A stretch of 64,000 nucleotides of DNA from Collinsella sp. An7 (GTDB lineage Bacteria > Actinomycetota > Coriobacteriia > Coriobacteriales > Coriobacteriaceae): contig NZ_NFHP01000001.1 of NCBI RefSeq assembly GCF_002159335.1, positions 310,001 to 374,000 on the forward strand, read 5' to 3'. The notes under the pieces were generated by a model that made no database searches, had not been told where the DNA came from, and was given only the letters and a program-made list of their open reading frames with translations. Shown here one piece after another: positions 11,326 to 63,785 of this stretch. How positions within the stretch are numbered: position 1 is the first letter of the stretch; each line of letters begins with the position of its first letter. The translations under genes and the position numbers were made by a program.

Positions 11326-11445
11326 CTCCGTAGCGGAGGGGCACGCCACCTTGCCCCTCAAGCCTTCGTGCATGGCACGAAGGCCTATGCCGCCTCGCTT
11401 CACGGCAATCTGGCGCACTGCGGCGGGCCGGCTCCGTTGCTGAGA
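11326..11445 (+). repeat. Hairpin repeat family A, degenerate copy
   Basis: This follows copy 1 directly and has the same plan: GCAC and CGCCAccTTGCC on the left, GGCAAtcTGGCGCAC on the right (11404-11418). A pyrimidine-rich CCGCCTCGCTTCAC precedes the right arm. In the loop, 11362-11371 and 11375-11384 form a perfect 10-bp hairpin (GCCTTCGTGC). The outer stem pairs less well than in the other two copies. Confidence 0.55.
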
Positions 11446-11447
11446 CG

Positions 11448-11503
11448 TGACAATGGGGACAGGTTGCTTTGTCACGTGACAAAGCAACCTGTCCCCATTG
11501 TCA
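11448..11503. repeat. Perfect 56-bp palindrome (family C-associated)
   Basis: Bases 11448-11475 are the exact reverse complement of 11476-11503, with no spacer. Each arm reads TGACAATGGGGACAGG followed by TTGCTTTGTCAC. A family C core lies just downstream at 11525-11537, and the TGACAxTGGGG end motif is shared with the palindrome at 16236. Confidence 0.9.
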
Positions 11504-11517
11504 TGTGCGGCGGATGG

Positions 11518-11555
11518 GTCAGTTGGGGACGTGTTCCGTTTGACCCATTTCGTAT
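11518..11555 (+). repeat. Family C repeat, copy 2
   Basis: GGGGACGTGTTCC at 11525-11537 followed by GTTTGACCCATTT, identical to the left arm of the 16236 palindrome over this stretch. The 660 bases between the PurF-like gene and the permease are otherwise non-coding and mostly occupied by these repeats. Confidence 0.75.
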
Positions 11556-11869: not shown

Positions 11870-13303
11870 ATGACGACAAACGCACGGAGGGAGGCCGCCC
11901 CAGCGGCCGAGACCTCGGAATACTTTGAGAAGCGCTCGCTTGCGCAGGGCTCGGTGAGCTGGGTGATGCTCATGGGGCTCGGCGTGGCCTACGCGATCTC
12001 GGGAGATTTCTCGGGCTGGAACTACGGCATCGCGCAGGGCGGCTGGGTCGGCATGCTCATCGCGTTTCTGGTAATGGGCGCCATGTACCTCTTCATGTCG
12101 TTCGGCCTCGCCGAGATGTCGTGCGCCATGCCCACGGCGGGTGCGGGCTACGCTTTCGCCCGCCGCGCGATGGGAAAGGTGGGCGGCGCCTTCACCGGGT
12201 TTGCCATCCTGGTTGATTTTGCCATCTGCCCCGCCGCCATCTCGACCTTCATCGCCGACTATGTGCACGCGCTGGGCTGGTTCTCCAACGTGCCCTCGGC
12301 GCTCATCATCGCCGTCTTCTTCGCCGTGTTCGTGGGGCTGCAGATCGTGGGCGTGGGCGAGGCCCTCAAGGTGACCTTTGGCATCACGCTCATCGCGGTC
12401 GCCGCCCTTGTGGTCTTTGCCGTGGGGATCACCCCGTCGTTCTCGGTGGGAAACCTTTTTGATATCGCTCCTGCAGCCTCCGGTGCGAGCGAGGCCCTGC
12501 CGTTTGGCGTGAGCGGCGTGATCGCGGCGCTGCCCTTCGGCATGTGGCTGTTCCTGGGCGTTGAGGGCGTGCCCCTTGCGGCCGAGGAGGCGCGCGACCC
12601 CGAGCGCGACATGCCACGCGGTATCATCGGCGCGATGCTCCTGCTCTTTATCACGGGCTTTGCGGCCGTCATGCTGGTCACGGGTGGTGCGGGGGCGCTC
12701 TTTGCCGGAACCGCCGCGGCCCCGCTCGTCGACGCCCTGAACGAGGTCGGCGCCCCCGGTTTTGCCGCGTTCGTGAACGTGGCCGGCCTCGCCGGACTCG
12801 TGGCATCGTTCTTCTCGTGCATCTACAGCGCCTCGCGCCAGGCGTTCGCCCTCTCGCGCGCCGGCTACCTGCCGAAGTTCCTCTCCTATACCGGTTCGCG
12901 CAAGACGCCCTTCGTCTCGCTCGTGGTGCTCGGCGTGATTGAGGTCGTCCTCGCCGTAGGCATCGGCAACGGCAGCGCCCTGCTCAACATGGCTGTCTTT
13001 GCTGCTTGCGTCTCGTACGCCATGATGAACCTCTCGCACATCCTGCTGCACCTCCACGAGCCCCAGATGGAGCGCGCGTTCGTGGCGCCCGGCGGCATTG
13101 CGCTCACCTCGATCTCGCTGGTGCTCGCGCTGGTGGCCCTGGTCTCGACCTTCTTCGTGGATGTGGTCGCCGCCGGCTGCACGCTCGCCGTGCTCGTGGC
13201 GCTCATGGTCTACTTCTTCGTCTACTCGCGTCACCACCTGGTGGCAAATGCCCCGGACGAGGAGTTCGCGGCCCTCGCCGCGGCCGAGGCGGAGCTCGCC
13301 TAG
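11870..13303 (+). CDS. APC-family amino acid/ethanolamine permease
   Basis: A 477-residue protein with about 12 membrane helices and the amino acid-polyamine-organocation fold. GVAYAISGDFSGWNYGIAQGG in helix 1 and AEMSCAMPTAGAGYAFARRAMG in helix 3 are very close to the substrate-binding helices of ethanolamine permeases (EutP/Eat type). FLGVEGVPLAAEEARDPERD is the conserved helix 6-7 region. It should bring a small amine or amino acid across the cytoplasmic membrane. ATG at 11870 follows AGGGGGA. The next two plus-strand genes encode a PLP enzyme and a small-molecule kinase, which supports ethanolamine or a related amino alcohol as cargo. Confidence 0.85.
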   Translation: MTTNARREAAPAAETSEYFEKRSLAQGSVSWVMLMGLGVAYAISGDFSGWNYGIAQGGWVGMLIAFLVMGAMYLFMSFGLAEMSCAMPTAGAGYAFARRAMGKVGGAFTGFAILVDFAICPAAISTFIADYVHALGWFSNVPSALIIAVFFAVFVGLQIVGVGEALKVTFGITLIAVAALVVFAVGITPSFSVGNLFDIAPAASGASEALPFGVSGVIAALPFGMWLFLGVEGVPLAAEEARDPERDMPRGIIGAMLLLFITGFAAVMLVTGGAGALFAGTAAAPLVDALNEVGAPGFAAFVNVAGLAGLVASFFSCIYSASRQAFALSRAGYLPKFLSYTGSRKTPFVSLVVLGVIEVVLAVGIGNGSALLNMAVFAACVSYAMMNLSHILLHLHEPQMERAFVAPGGIALTSISLVLALVALVSTFFVDVVAAGCTLAVLVALMVYFFVYSRHHLVANAPDEEFAALAAAEAELA

Positions 13304-13381
13304 CACAGTCCCCGTCCCACACCGTCCGGTGTCCGGCTCCTTTGCCCCAGCCCAAACCCCACTCACGAAAAGAGGCCTCCC

Positions 13382-14734
13382 ATGGCTCAACCTTCCGTCC
13401 CCGAGGAGAACGTAGGCATCCTCAATTCCAACAGCTTTGACATGGCCGACCTGCCCACGCTCACCGGCGAGCTCCACGATCTCGTTGCCCGCCGCGAGGT
13501 GCTCGGCCCCTGCTACCGGCTCTTCTACCAGCGACCACTCCACCTGGTGCGCGGCCGGGGGTGCCGGCTCTTTGACGCCGACGGCACCGAGTACCTCGAT
13601 ATGTATAACAACATCCCCTCGATCGGGCATGCCAACCCGGTGGTGACCGAGGCGGTGACGCGCCAGCTCGAGCTTATCAACACGCACACGCGCTACGTGC
13701 ATGAGAATCTGCTCGACTACGCCGACGAGCTCCTCGAGACCCTGCCCGAGCCTATCGACCGCATCATGTTCATGCTCTCGGGCTCCGAGGCCAACGACCT
13801 CGCACTGCGCTGCGCCAAGCTCTACTCGGGCGGCGAGGGCATTATCGTGACCTCCGAGGCGTACCACGGCAACACCGAGCTCGTCTCGGGCGTCTCGCCC
13901 TCCATCGGCAAGGACGTGCCCATGAGCCGGACGATGCGCATGATCGAGAGCCCCGACACCTACCGGCTCGGCACCGACGAGATCGGCCCGTGGATGTGCG
14001 AGCAGATAAGCGCGCAGATTGCCGATATGCGCCGGCACGGGATCGAGTTTGCAGGCGTGATCTTTGACAGCATCTTCTCGTCCGACGGTGTGATTCCCGG
14101 CGCGCCGGGCTTTCTCAAGTCGGTGGTGGACCTTGTGCATGCCGAGGGCGGCGTCTACATTGCCGATGAGGTGCAGCCCGGGTTCTGCCGTACGGGCAAG
14201 GGGTTCTGGGGCTTTGAGCGCCACGGCATCGTGCCCGATATCGTGACGATGGGCAAACCCATGGCAAACGGCATCGCTTGCTCAGGCATGGCGATCAAGC
14301 ACGAGGTGCTCGACGCCTTTGCGCGCACCTATCCCTACTTCAACACCTTTGCGGGAAACCCCGTGGCCATGGCCGCGGCGTTGGCGGTGCTCCACTACCT
14401 CAAGGATGAGCACGTGCTCGAGCATGTGGACGCGATCGGCGACAAGCTGGTGGACGAGCTGCTCGCCATGGCCCTGAAGCACCCCGTGCTCGGCGATGTG
14501 CGCGGGACGGGCCTGTTTGTGGGCGTGGACATCGTGGTTCCGGGCACGACCGAGCCCGACCGCGCGCTCGCGGTGCGGCTTATCGAGCAGCTGCGCGAGG
14601 AGCGCGTGCTCATCTCGCTCTGCGGCCCCTACGGCAGCGTGCTCAAGATTCGCCCGCCGCTCGTGTTTGATGAGGACGACTTGGCGTTCTTTGTGGCCGC
14701 GCTCGAGCGGGCGCTCACGGCGCTGGGGGTGTAG
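13382..14734 (+). CDS. Class III PLP aminotransferase-fold enzyme (phospho-lyase candidate)
   Basis: A 450-residue fold-type I PLP enzyme of class III. GSEAN at 134-138 binds the cofactor phosphate, YIADEVQPG contains the pyridine-nitrogen Asp262, and TMGKPMANG carries the Schiff-base Lys292. Ordinary members are omega-amino acid transaminases. The AGXT2L1/AGXT2L2 subgroup instead eliminates phosphate and ammonia from phosphoethanolamine or 5-phosphohydroxylysine. An APH-fold kinase encoded directly downstream and an ethanolamine-type permease upstream make the phospho-lyase reading attractive here, but sequence alone does not exclude a transaminase. A Shine-Dalgarno AAAAGAGG precedes the ATG. 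Confidence 0.82.
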   Translation: MAQPSVPEENVGILNSNSFDMADLPTLTGELHDLVARREVLGPCYRLFYQRPLHLVRGRGCRLFDADGTEYLDMYNNIPSIGHANPVVTEAVTRQLELINTHTRYVHENLLDYADELLETLPEPIDRIMFMLSGSEANDLALRCAKLYSGGEGIIVTSEAYHGNTELVSGVSPSIGKDVPMSRTMRMIESPDTYRLGTDEIGPWMCEQISAQIADMRRHGIEFAGVIFDSIFSSDGVIPGAPGFLKSVVDLVHAEGGVYIADEVQPGFCRTGKGFWGFERHGIVPDIVTMGKPMANGIACSGMAIKHEVLDAFARTYPYFNTFAGNPVAMAAALAVLHYLKDEHVLEHVDAIGDKLVDELLAMALKHPVLGDVRGTGLFVGVDIVVPGTTEPDRALAVRLIEQLREERVLISLCGPYGSVLKIRPPLVFDEDDLAFFVAALERALTALGV

Positions 14735-14845
14735 CGCCTGCGCGCCGCGTGCGGGGTGCGGAGCGCCCACGCCCCGTCCCGCCTGCGTTCGCACGGCTCC
14801 ACAACCCATCGCCCCGTCCACCCTCGCAGGAAAGGATGATCCCCC

Positions 14846-15850
14846 ATGGCAACCAACTTTGATAACCCCGAGCTCTTTCAATGGGTGGCCGAGCAGGCGG
14901 CCGCGCGCTACCCCTTCGATAACCCGGGCTGCCGTCTGCTGGCCTTCTCCGAGAACGCCACGTACCTCATCTTTGACCCCGTAACCGGTGAGAAGCTCTG
15001 CGTGCTGCGTGTGGGACGCCCCGGCTACCACACCCGCCCGGAGTACGAGAGCGAGATCAGCTGGCTCCGGCAGATCAACGACTACACGCCGCTCACCGTG
15101 GCAAATCCCATTCCCGCGCGCGATGGGTCCTTTATCCAGGAGGTGACCGACCCCGCAACGGGCAACGTCTACTTCTGCATGGCAACGGAATTTCTCTCGG
15201 GCGAGACCCTCGAGCACGAGACCGACCCCGCCGCCGTTCCACGGCACTTTGAGATGCTCGGCGAGATCACGGCCTACCTGCACCGTCAGACCGAGATTTG
15301 GAATGGCACCAAAGAAATCGTCCGCCCCCACTGGGACTGCGACAACATGATCGGGCCGCACGCCATCTGGGGCGACTGGCGGGCCTATCCCGAGCTCACG
15401 CCCGAGACGCAGGGGGCGATCGAGCGCTGCGTGGGCATCATCTACCGCCGGCTCGAGCGGTACGGCAAGACGCCCCAAAACTACGGCGTTATCCATGCCG
15501 ACCTGCGCGACACCAACATCATCGTGGAGGGCGACGCGGTGAAGGTGATCGACTTCGACGACTTCGGCTTTGGCTGGCACCTGCACGACCTCGCCGGTGC
15601 CCTCACCTTTATCGAGGAGCGCGACGACGTGCCCGACCTGGTGAACGCGTGGCTCGACGGTTACCGCAAGGTGCTGCCGTTTACCGATACCGATTTTGTA
15701 GAGATCGACACGTTCATTTTGCAGCGCCGCATCCAGATGCTCGCGTGGCTCGCGAGCCATCAGGACTCAACGCCCGTGCAGGGCTATATGGAGGGGTATC
15801 TGGACGGAACGATGGGGCTCGTCGACCGGTATCTGAAGCTCTTTGGATAA
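14846..15850 (+). CDS. APH/choline-kinase-fold small-molecule kinase
   Basis: A 334-residue protein of the aminoglycoside phosphotransferase superfamily. The catalytic loop VIHADLRDTNI supplies Asp219 and Asn224, and VIDFDDFGFGWHLHDLA supplies the metal-binding Asp236. This fold includes hydroxylysine kinase, homoserine kinase II, ethanolamine/choline kinases and antibiotic kinases. Its place after a class III PLP enzyme mirrors the kinase plus phospho-lyase pair of hydroxylysine and ethanolamine breakdown, where the kinase makes the O-phosphate the lyase consumes. Antibiotic resistance is less likely in this context. ATG at 14846 follows GGAAAGGATGATCCCCC. Confidence 0.8.
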   Translation: MATNFDNPELFQWVAEQAAARYPFDNPGCRLLAFSENATYLIFDPVTGEKLCVLRVGRPGYHTRPEYESEISWLRQINDYTPLTVANPIPARDGSFIQEVTDPATGNVYFCMATEFLSGETLEHETDPAAVPRHFEMLGEITAYLHRQTEIWNGTKEIVRPHWDCDNMIGPHAIWGDWRAYPELTPETQGAIERCVGIIYRRLERYGKTPQNYGVIHADLRDTNIIVEGDAVKVIDFDDFGFGWHLHDLAGALTFIEERDDVPDLVNAWLDGYRKVLPFTDTDFVEIDTFILQRRIQMLAWLASHQDSTPVQGYMEGYLDGTMGLVDRYLKLFG

Positions 15851-15892
15851 GGCGGGGACACGCAGGATAAAACAGCTGAAAGGAAGTGCACG

Positions 15893-16234
15893 ATGAAGGC
15901 GATCGAGCTCATCATCAACGGCGACAAGTTGGACCGCGTCATGCAGCTGCTGTCGACGTTTAGCAAGAGCGGCATCTTTGTGGCGCAGGGGTTTGGCTAT
16001 GGGCATCAGCATGGGTTTAAGCAGGTCTATACGCGTGACGACGACCGCGGCGTAAAGATCCTGCCCAAGGTCTCGGTGCGCACGGTGGTGGAGGACGCGC
16101 TTGCCGAGCAGGTGGTCGATACGCTCGTTGCGGAGCTGGGGAGTGCGTCGTTTGGCGACGGAAAGATCTTCATCACCGACGTGATCGATGCGGTGCGGGT
16201 GCGTACGGGCGAGCACGGCGACGAGGCCCTCTAG
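15893..16234 (+). CDS. P-II-family nitrogen/metabolite sensor with variant T-loop
   Basis: A 113-residue GlnB/GlnK-like trimer subunit. The core is well conserved: MKAIELIINGDKLDRVMQLL, GFGYGHQHGF, LPKVSVRTVV, then GDGKIFITDVIDAVRVRTGE for the B- and C-loops that bind ATP and 2-oxoglutarate. The T-loop reads VYTRDDDRGVKILPK. The uridylylated Tyr51 of the enterobacterial protein is replaced by Asp51, and there is one extra residue. It therefore cannot be uridylylated at the canonical Tyr and probably has a different partner. The gene is 42 bases after the kinase and likely belongs to the same unit. Confidence 0.85.
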   Translation: MKAIELIINGDKLDRVMQLLSTFSKSGIFVAQGFGYGHQHGFKQVYTRDDDRGVKILPKVSVRTVVEDALAEQVVDTLVAELGSASFGDGKIFITDVIDAVRVRTGEHGDEAL

Positions 16235-16235
16235 C

Positions 16236-16323
16236 GTGACAGTGGGGCATTTGGGGACGTGTTCCGTTTGACCCATTTGCAAATGGGTCAAACGGAACAC
16301 GTCCCCAAATGTCCCACTGTCAC
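16236..16323. repeat. 88-bp palindrome built from two family C arms
   Basis: Arms 16236-16278 and 16281-16323 are 43 bases each with a GC spacer. They pair except for one position that would be a G-U wobble in RNA. Each arm carries GTGACAGTGGGG, the core GGGGACGTGTTCC and GTTTGACCCATTT. It begins right after the P-II stop and could double as a strong terminator, although only a short A/T stretch follows. Confidence 0.9.
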
Positions 16324-16421: not shown

Positions 16422-16440
16422 TTCGGTGAGAGGAGGCGCG

Positions 16441-18117
16441 ATGGGGGAGAGCACCGGGAGCACGTTTGCCGAGCGGCTGAACCGCTCGCTCGACGCCGCC
16501 GGCCTCAAGCAAGCAGACCTTATCCGCGCGGCGGGTGCGCGCGGGCAGAAGCTCGGCAAGAGCCAGGTGAGCCAGTACGTGAGCGGCAAGACCCTGCCGC
16601 GCCCGCGCGTGATGCGCCTGTTAGCCGAGCTCCTCAACGTGGACGAGCGCTGGCTTGCCGCAGGGGAGGGCCCAGCGGCCTCCGGAGCCCCTACTGCCAC
16701 TGACGGCAGCGGTCCCGCCGCTCCCAGCTCGGCGGCCGCCACGGCCTCGGCGGCCTCTGCATTCGCCGCGGCCCCGCCCACCCCGGCGCGAGCCGCCGCG
16801 CGGCCTGAGACCGCAGCCCCCTTCCCGTCATCCACCGCGGCGTCCGAGTCCGTCCTCCAAAGTGGCCCCGGCCCGCGTTCCACCCAAAGGAGCACCCCCA
16901 TGCGCGAGTTCAAAAAATCCACCAAGCTCGATAACGTTCTCTACGATGTCCGCGGCCCCGTGGCCGACGAGGCGGCCCGCATGGAGGACGAGGGTCTGCG
17001 CATCCTTAAGCTCAACATCGGCAACCCGGCGCCCTTCGGCTTCCGCACGCCCGACGAGGTCGTGACCGACATGCGTCAGCAGCTCCCCGACTGCGAGGGC
17101 TACTCCGACTCCAAGGGCCTCTTTTCGGCGCGCAAGGCCATCATGCAGTACGCGCAGCTCAAGCATATCCCCAACGTCTCGATGGACGGTATCTACACCG
17201 GCAACGGCGTCTCGGAGCTCATCCAGCTCTGCATGAACGCCCTGCTCGACACCGGCGACGAGATCCTCATTCCGAGCCCCGACTACCCGCTCTGGACGGC
17301 CTGCGCCACGCTTGCCGGCGGCACGCCCGTGCACTACGTCTGTGACGAGGAGGCCGAGTGGAACCCCGACCTCGCCGACCTGGAGTCCAAGATCACGAGC
17401 AATACCAAGGCCATCGTCATCATCAACCCCAACAACCCCACGGGCGCCGTCTACCCGCGCGAGGTGCTCGAGCAGATTGTCGAGATCGCCCGTCGGCACG
17501 GTCTCATGATCTTCTCGGACGAGATCTACGACCGCCTCTGCATGGACGGTGTGGAGCACATCTCGATCGCCTCGCTCGCGCCCGACCTGCCCTGCGTGAC
17601 GTTCTCGGGCCTCTCCAAGAGCCATATGATCGCGGGTTACCGCATCGGCTGGATGGTGCTCTCGGGCAACAAGCGCTGCATGAAGGACTTTATCTACGGC
17701 ATCAACATGCTCTCCAATATGCGCCTGTGCTCCAACGTGCCGGCGCAGTCCGTTGTGCAGACGGCGCTCGGCGGCTACCAGAGCGTAGAGCGCTACGTAG
17801 AGCCGGGCGGGCGCATCTACGAGCAGCGCGAGTATGTCTACAAGGCGCTCAACGAGATTCCGGGCATCAGCGTGGTCAAGCCCAAGGCGGCGTTCTACAT
17901 CTTCCCCAAGATGGACGTCGAGCGGTTCAACATCACCGATGACGAGCAATTCGCCCTCGACCTCCTGCACGAGAAGCGCATCCTCATCACGCGCGGTGGC
18001 GGCTTTAACTGGGGCAAGCCCGACCATTTCCGCATCGTGTACCTGCCGCGCATGGAGGTCCTGCACGAGGCGCTCACCGATCTGGCCGACTTCTTTGCGC
18101 ATTACCGCCAAGGGTAA
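16441..18117 (+). CDS. alaA: XRE helix-turn-helix fused to AlaA-type aminotransferase
   Basis: A 558-residue fusion. Residues 1-70 form an XRE/Cro HTH (FAERLNRSLDAAGLKQADLI, KSQVSQYVSGKTLPRP) with the LLNVDERWLAAGEG ending usual in phage-type regulators. A low-complexity Ala/Pro/Ser linker follows, then from residue 154 a complete class I PLP aminotransferase close to Escherichia coli AlaA: LNIGNPAPFGF, GNGVSELI, PDYPLWTA, INPNNPTGAVY and the PLP lysine in SGLSKSHMIAGYR. It should interconvert pyruvate/glutamate and alanine/2-oxoglutarate. AAAGGAG at 16886-16892 sits seven bases before an in-frame ATG at 16900, so the enzyme alone may also be made. AGGAGG precedes the ATG at 16441. Confidence 0.85.
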   Translation: MGESTGSTFAERLNRSLDAAGLKQADLIRAAGARGQKLGKSQVSQYVSGKTLPRPRVMRLLAELLNVDERWLAAGEGPAASGAPTATDGSGPAAPSSAAATASAASAFAAAPPTPARAAARPETAAPFPSSTAASESVLQSGPGPRSTQRSTPMREFKKSTKLDNVLYDVRGPVADEAARMEDEGLRILKLNIGNPAPFGFRTPDEVVTDMRQQLPDCEGYSDSKGLFSARKAIMQYAQLKHIPNVSMDGIYTGNGVSELIQLCMNALLDTGDEILIPSPDYPLWTACATLAGGTPVHYVCDEEAEWNPDLADLESKITSNTKAIVIINPNNPTGAVYPREVLEQIVEIARRHGLMIFSDEIYDRLCMDGVEHISIASLAPDLPCVTFSGLSKSHMIAGYRIGWMVLSGNKRCMKDFIYGINMLSNMRLCSNVPAQSVVQTALGGYQSVERYVEPGGRIYEQREYVYKALNEIPGISVVKPKAAFYIFPKMDVERFNITDDEQFALDLLHEKRILITRGGGFNWGKPDHFRIVYLPRMEVLHEALTDLADFFAHYRQG

Positions 18118-63739: not shown

Positions 63740-63785
63740 CGCGTGGTGCATTTGGGGACGTGTTCCGTTTGCGCCATTTTCGGGC
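63740..63785 (+). repeat. Family C repeat, copy 4
   Basis: GGGGACGTGTTCC at 63754-63766 followed by GTTTGCGCCATTTT, again directly after a stop codon (truA). It is a single arm without an inverted partner nearby. Confidence 0.75.

Follow-up and report, generated by a model that had tools for sequence, protein, structure and literature searches.

What does a P-II protein do directly behind a kinase gene, at the end of a short operon that seems to be devoted to an amino alcohol? The question is raised by a four-gene cassette of Collinsella sp. An7 (positions 11870-16234, plus strand), which lies in a stretch of 64,000 nucleotides (contig NZ_NFHP01000001.1, positions 310,001 to 374,000) that we refer to as the window. 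The original prediction had read the cassette as a permease, a class III pyridoxal phosphate (PLP) enzyme, an APH-fold kinase and a P-II protein, in this order on a single strand, and the open frames bear this out. The genes encode an APC-type permease of the ethanolamine/amino-alcohol kind (11870-13303; TIGR00908, 412.2 bits against a cut-off of 381.75), the PLP enzyme (13382-14734, 450 amino acids; PF00202, 249.9 bits), the kinase (14846-15850, 334 amino acids; PF01636, 73.3 bits) and the P-II protein (15893-16234, 113 amino acids; PF00543, 67.3 bits), with each profile score above its cut-off and intergenic gaps of 78, 111 and 42 bases. Our results make it quite probable, as judged from sequence, that these four genes work together in the breakdown of a short amino alcohol, independently of a microcompartment and of B12, with a P-II protein of their own.

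Among all solved structures, the best relatives of the PLP enzyme are PDB 5g4i (E = 5.1e-101; 41% identity over 423 residues) and human ETNPPL, also called AGXT2L1 (PDB 6tor; E = 4.7e-95), and the third-ranked, an amino-acid racemase, follows far behind (E = 2.1e-55). The protein in 5g4i and 5g4j is A1RDF1, which we take to be a bacterial O-phosphoethanolamine phospho-lyase. Five motifs are common to 5g4i and 6tor, and all five are kept in the enzyme from the window: NN...GH (YNNIPSIGH in the window, YNNVPHVGH in 5g4i, INNVAHVGH in 6tor), N..[TS]R[YF] (NTHTRY, NLHTRY and NTNSRF, respectively), VTMGKPM, FNT[FY].GNPV and GP...VLK.[RK]PP. These patterns were drawn from the aligned sequences of the present analysis, not from the literature; in these forms they are missing from GabT, PuuE, PatA and the racemase. 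Lys292, which had been noted as intact, is present inside VTMGKPM. A tree had been proposed as a check, and in it the enzyme joins the phospho-lyases: 28 members of this group, among them the window's enzyme, 5g4i and ETNPPL, fall together (SH-like approximate likelihood ratio test [SH-aLRT], 99) apart from GabT, PuuE, PatA and the racemase. This tree holds 44 rows chosen from 85 collected, with these three transaminases and one racemase as the contrast and AGXT2L2 absent; like the kinase tree discussed below, it was made by a quick method and gave long-branch warnings. An ordinary transaminase was rejected on the basis of the motifs and the tree, and the enzyme is supported as a member of the phospho-lyase group, for which release of phosphate and ammonia is predicted. 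What it shares with A1RDF1 and ETNPPL is thus the ranking among solved structures, the motifs and the clade; it differs from them in being encoded in an operon with a kinase, a permease and a P-II protein, and its substrate is assigned by homology.

The kinase is predicted to be an amino-alcohol kinase of the APH fold similar to PDB 6ef6, its best solved relative (E = 1.7e-54), which we assume to be the (S)-1-amino-2-propanol kinase of Mycobacterium smegmatis and, presumably, part of a microcompartment pathway there. The next best relative is an amicoumacin kinase (E = 7.6e-11); with all amicoumacin kinases at this value or worse, an antibiotic phosphotransferase was rejected as a candidate. 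HADLR, N224 and IDFDD are invariant in an alignment of 13 kinase sequences, so that Asp219, Asn224 and Asp236, the residues singled out at the outset, are among the invariant columns. The long model PRK06149 is matched in its C-terminal part by the lyase and weakly in its N-terminal part by the kinase (28.8 bits, below the cut-off). A paper on the mycobacterial 1-amino-2-propanol kinase is listed by title among the references of PMC6787980, and none of the papers listed in our search of the open-licence literature dealt with such a bacterial kinase outside a microcompartment.

The search for alternative routes in the host genome (2.37 Mb; in the kinase tree it comes closest, among named organisms, to Collinsella and Candidatus Coprousia of the Coriobacteriaceae) is consistent with these assignments. 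The shell protein family PF00936 had 0 matches there, and EutB, which is present in 2 of 65 genomes of the family, had none; both a microcompartment and the Eut pathway were rejected for the host genome on these grounds, and the absence of a B12 lyase and a microcompartment from the proposed route agrees with what the original prediction had assumed. Among 30 genomes with relatives, 5 match a shell protein, 4 of them above the cut-off, and none of the matches lies on the contig of the kinase, as read from coordinates and the lengths of contigs. The phospho-lyase clade, the relation of the kinase to 6ef6 and the failure to find a shell protein or EutB therefore support the predicted kinase and phospho-lyase pathway. 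The amino alcohol would be imported by the permease, as its family suggests, and the kinase would phosphorylate its hydroxyl group at the expense of ATP, as expected from its closest solved relative. This step would precede the lyase, because the phospho-lyase motifs are present. The PLP enzyme would then eliminate phosphate and ammonia, so that ethanolamine would give acetaldehyde and 1-amino-2-propanol would give propanal. PF00171 has three matches in the host genome, namely a full-length AdhE (1352 bits), an aldehyde dehydrogenase and ProA. AdhE would be the obvious acceptor of the aldehyde and is a possible sink for it; the gene is there, and its use in this pathway is suggested by its presence.

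This chemistry is not itself new, since biochemical work of the 1970s already described an amino-alcohol kinase together with a phospho-lyase. What is new is the clade to which the P-II protein belongs. The 24 cassette-type P-II proteins form a single clade (support 100/99) on a branch of 0.53, in a tree from which 12 of 81 rows were left out as divergent and read as NifI-like (they were kept in the motif count). All 24 carry the T-loop motif Y[TV]R[DEN][DEN], which occurs in 0 of the 57 other P-II proteins compared, and the pattern RG[TASV][EDP] is found in 34 of those 57 and in none of the cassette type. In the window's protein this place is taken by YTRDDD (residues 46 to 51; 16028-16045), and we assume that the canonical uridylylation motif lies in the T-loop around Tyr51. 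The 57 were taken from genomes with a close kinase and from eight places in seven further genomes of the family, and they exclude seven weak P-II places and the proteins of genomes G039, G222 and G097. One sequence (L158, genome G417) is labeled "other" in the tree and was counted as cassette-type because it falls in the cassette-type clade; under its original label, the cassette-type group needs two changes, not one. In loose patterns, Q39, K59, GDGK and [RK][IV]RT are present in 24 of 24 cassette-type proteins, with glutamate for Q39 in L062 and lysine for the first arginine of RxRT in many Bacillota; we take these to be the expected positions of contact with ATP and 2-oxoglutarate. Since the expected effector residues are kept and the T-loop is rebuilt, the protein probably reads energy and nitrogen status. 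It would be dedicated to the module much as GlnK is to AmtB, and would adjust it accordingly. In the original prediction it was to sense the nitrogen that the lyase releases; the present data speak for a dedicated clade that goes with the kinase.

The distribution of the cassette points to the same dedication. In a sample of 396 genomes of the class, 15 have a kinase match at E = 1e-20, and in nine of these, including the host, the identity to the window's kinase is 62 to 100%. In all nine, the lyase is present together with a permease of the APC type and a like P-II protein; the permease is 57 to 100% identical to that of the window in eight of them and of another APC type in L030. The kinase is followed by P-II in 8 of the 9 (host included), and the association is therefore not due to chance; in the ninth (G354) the contig of the kinase ends after 53 further bases, and a P-II gene of this type was found on a different contig, 112 bases short of its end. 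In a wider scan of the best 80 of 118 kinase relatives (79 loci, so that the counts describe the top slice), a P-II gene is found close to the kinase at 21 of the 24 loci where kinase identity is at least 53%, and at 0 of the 55 where it is 43% or below. The close loci come from ten Coriobacteriia, thirteen Lachnospiraceae, Eubacterium and other Bacillota, and one Treponema, and their kinases form a single clade of 25 together with that of the window (SH-aLRT, 100). Collinsella stercoris DSM 13279 (L044) is one carrier of the cassette. L048 and L063, two of the three misses, are cut by contig ends, and a cassette-type P-II is found elsewhere in both genomes. The other genes are more variable, with a lyase of the ETNPPL type in 12 of the 24 loci, a second class III type in 9 and none seen in 3, and with a TIGR00908-like permease in 9, another APC type in 11 and none seen in 4. 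The lyases of Coriobacteriia, from loci of either kinase type, cluster with one another, adjoined by a Bifidobacterium lyase and separate from those of L061 (Treponema) and L062 (Lachnospiraceae); unlike these lyases, the cassette kinases and P-II proteins group with those of Bacillota and Treponema. The kinase and its P-II protein thus appear to behave as a stable unit, and because P-II follows the kinase while the types of lyase and permease change, the kinase is the likeliest target of a dedicated P-II protein that probably controls the pathway.

The second class III PLP family, which lacks the phospho-lyase motifs and has a putrescine aminotransferase as its nearest solved relative, was seen beside relatives of the same kinase at L056:8700-9983 and also in L055, L057 to L060, L063 to L067, L069, L078 and L079; possibly these enzymes are phospho-lyases too, unrelated to the first and acting on a different amino alcohol. 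In Aquibacillus (L069:7861-8634) a EutC gene stands immediately before the second-type lyase and the kinase. Cassettes of Eggerthellaceae contain a HAD phosphatase, either as a separate gene between permease and lyase (L028:7312-7995 and L029:2729-3421) or fused to the N terminus of the phospho-lyase (L026:7395-9431 and L027:10110-12146). A gene for an ANTAR-domain response regulator, recognized by Pfam, lies downstream of the cassette on the opposite strand at L027:7947-8555, with tblastn matches at L046:11454 and L047:11454 and partial ones at L042:5661 and L044:11506; elsewhere, ethanolamine genes are among the targets of ANTAR proteins such as EutV.

Which partner does the P-II protein serve? 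The host genome yielded no other P-II and no match to AmtB (PF00909), and the protein keeps the expected effector residues, as would suit a general nitrogen regulator with an ordinary GlnB role and no special tie to the kinase. The genomes of the family make this rather improbable. Among the 65, P-II was found in 40, AmtB in 38 and the kinase in 4, and of the 27 without AmtB, P-II occurs in three, exactly those that have the kinase, and in none of the other 24 (Fisher test, 3.4e-4, uncorrected for kinship). In addition, G323 has an AmtB with its own P-II besides a cassette with a second one, and the T-loop motif is confined to the cassette type in the comparison given above; G426 (72% complete) has AmtB, and no P-II was found in it. 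A closer competitor is that P-II serves the permease and shuts off the uptake of the amino alcohol under nitrogen excess, in the way that GlnK blocks AmtB. Read from coordinates, 37 of the 43 P-II places in the family lie beside amtB, four beside the kinase, and the remaining two are a pair in G018 that is read as NifI-like; moreover, in 9 of the 11 close loci with the other APC type, P-II directly follows the permease rather than the kinase. We consider a permease target unlikely, though clearly less so than a general regulator, as the permease type varies while kinase and P-II remain constant, and as kinase and P-II are adjacent in L057, where with 10 kb on both sides no permease query matched and no APC permease was among the 10 neighboring open reading frames (10, not all) that were scanned with Pfam. 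Judged by Pfam names alone, one could also have an omega-transaminase of the ordinary sort next to a phosphotransferase of the antibiotic type, and the kinase does match amicoumacin kinases weakly; in view of the motifs, the tree, the ranking of solved structures and the conserved operon, this is very improbable.

The placements of P-II behind the permease are one of several points that weigh against the proposed module and a P-II tied to its kinase. The contrast of 21 of 24 with 0 of 55 loci (Fisher test, 2.7e-16) is uncorrected for kinship and overstates the evidence, because the close kinases form approximately one clade, and 10 kb of sequence was available on both sides in 16 of the 24 close and 38 of the 55 distant loci, with a shorter flank in 8 and 17. 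L064 is a real miss, with a close kinase, 10 kb of sequence downstream and no P-II there, and none of the five P-II proteins of that genome is of the cassette type. At E = 1e-22 the cassette P-II is matched in 12 of the 396 class genomes, which are the nine with a close kinase and G039, G222 and G097. The proteins of G039 and G222 (L182:9933-10400 and L183:6161-6664; 54 to 55% identity) have no kinase match with them and have lost the T-loop motif; the one in G222 adjoins an AgcS sodium:alanine symporter gene, a placement that also suits a permease target, and a similar gene lies about 6 kb away in G039. That of G097 (44%) has an ordinary P-II T-loop. No aldehyde dehydrogenase was found within the operon. 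The cues to the substrate are split as well, the permease family pointing to ethanolamine and the kinase relative to 1-amino-2-propanol. A short-chain dehydrogenase/reductase (SDR) gene lies at most 4 kb upstream of the kinase in 13 of the 24 related loci (those of three loci were scanned and fit the UcpA model), and its product could make or oxidize 1-amino-2-propanol. This raises the possibility that the substrate is 1-amino-2-propanol, derived from aminoacetone, and the product propanal. With 6ef6, presumably a 1-amino-2-propanol kinase, as the closest solved relative, it is a real, if minority, possibility, against which stand the lack of an SDR in the window's cassette, the TIGR00908 score and the activity of A1RDF1 on phosphoethanolamine. 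Taken by itself, the sequence would fit either amino alcohol.

Comparison with known systems shows where the proposed amino-alcohol module differs. The EutBC route, a B12-dependent lyase within a microcompartment, has the same likely substrate and the same products (aldehyde and ammonia), but EutB and shell proteins were not found in the host genome, and the route in the window would spend ATP and release phosphate. With GlnK-AmtB the module shares a P-II protein that is encoded beside, and apparently dedicated to, one module of nitrogen acquisition; it differs in that AmtB was not found in the host genome, that the predicted partner is an amino-alcohol kinase pathway and that the T-loop is rebuilt. 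A precedent for control of a small-molecule kinase by P-II is PII-NAGK, the pair that P-II forms in phototrophs with N-acetylglutamate kinase. The fold of NAGK is a different one, and the pairing in the window is a proposed one. Papers on the RMM/Aut microcompartment of Mycobacterium and Rhodococcus describe loci with a GntR regulator, a permease, an aminotransferase, an aldehyde dehydrogenase, a phosphotransferase and an amino-propanol dehydrogenase (PMC4207490 and PMC6620236), and thus a similar clustering of an amino acid or GabP-type permease, an aminotransferase homolog and an APH phosphotransferase; in PMC6620236 it is proposed that lactaldehyde arises through the aminotransferase and that lactyl-CoA is the substrate of the phosphotransferase. 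A further shared feature is the relation of the window's kinase to 6ef6. The module differs from this system by the lack of a detected shell protein in the host genome, by a cassette devoid of an SDR or aldehyde dehydrogenase and by the added P-II. No name for the cassette P-II subfamily was found in the open-licence literature searched, where the titles and the beginnings of abstracts yielded no paper that ties P-II to amino-alcohol kinases, and the passages of PMC9397018 examined describe no such P-II.

The cassette is bounded by two near-perfect palindromes, one on the 5' side (11445-11506; 31-nucleotide arms, 97% complementary, spacer 0) and one on the 3' side (16236-16323; 44-nucleotide arms, 98% complementary, spacer 0). 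The 21-mer GGGGACGTGTTCCGTTTGACC, common to the downstream palindrome and to 11525-11545, has four matches in the window at up to 3 mismatches (0.01 expected), and the sites tied to it or to the palindromes are 11445-11506, 11525-11545, 16236-16323 and 63754-63774. The palindromes may be elements similar to repetitive extragenic palindromes or marks of insertion. Directly 3' of the cassette (16426-18117) is a gene for a class I/II aminotransferase with an N-terminal helix-turn-helix (HTH_3), for which alanine aminotransferase is the top model, with a score under that model's cut-off. Searches of the window gave no Rfam family at the gathering threshold and no tRNA, and a scan for promoters and terminators gave no promoter-like site and three terminator-like sites (3.9 in shuffled sequences).

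Tentatively, and with less than even confidence, we suggest that the P-II subfamily binds the kinase and gates it directly in response to ATP/ADP and 2-oxoglutarate, that the two travel as a unit among Coriobacteriia, Bacillota and Treponema with various lyases and permeases, and that they are a candidate for a second pair of P-II and small-molecule kinase beside PII-NAGK. For P-II biology, the dedicated protein raises a pointed question, with its expected effector residues kept, its output loop rebuilt and a candidate partner gene 42 bases upstream, and the host genome is well suited to a test, as neither AmtB nor another P-II was found in it to confuse the outcome. Ethanolamine derived from membranes is a notable nutrient in the gut, and its use is usually sought through EutBC and microcompartment genes. 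If ethanolamine use is screened for in this manner, genomes like that of Collinsella sp. An7 would be missed.

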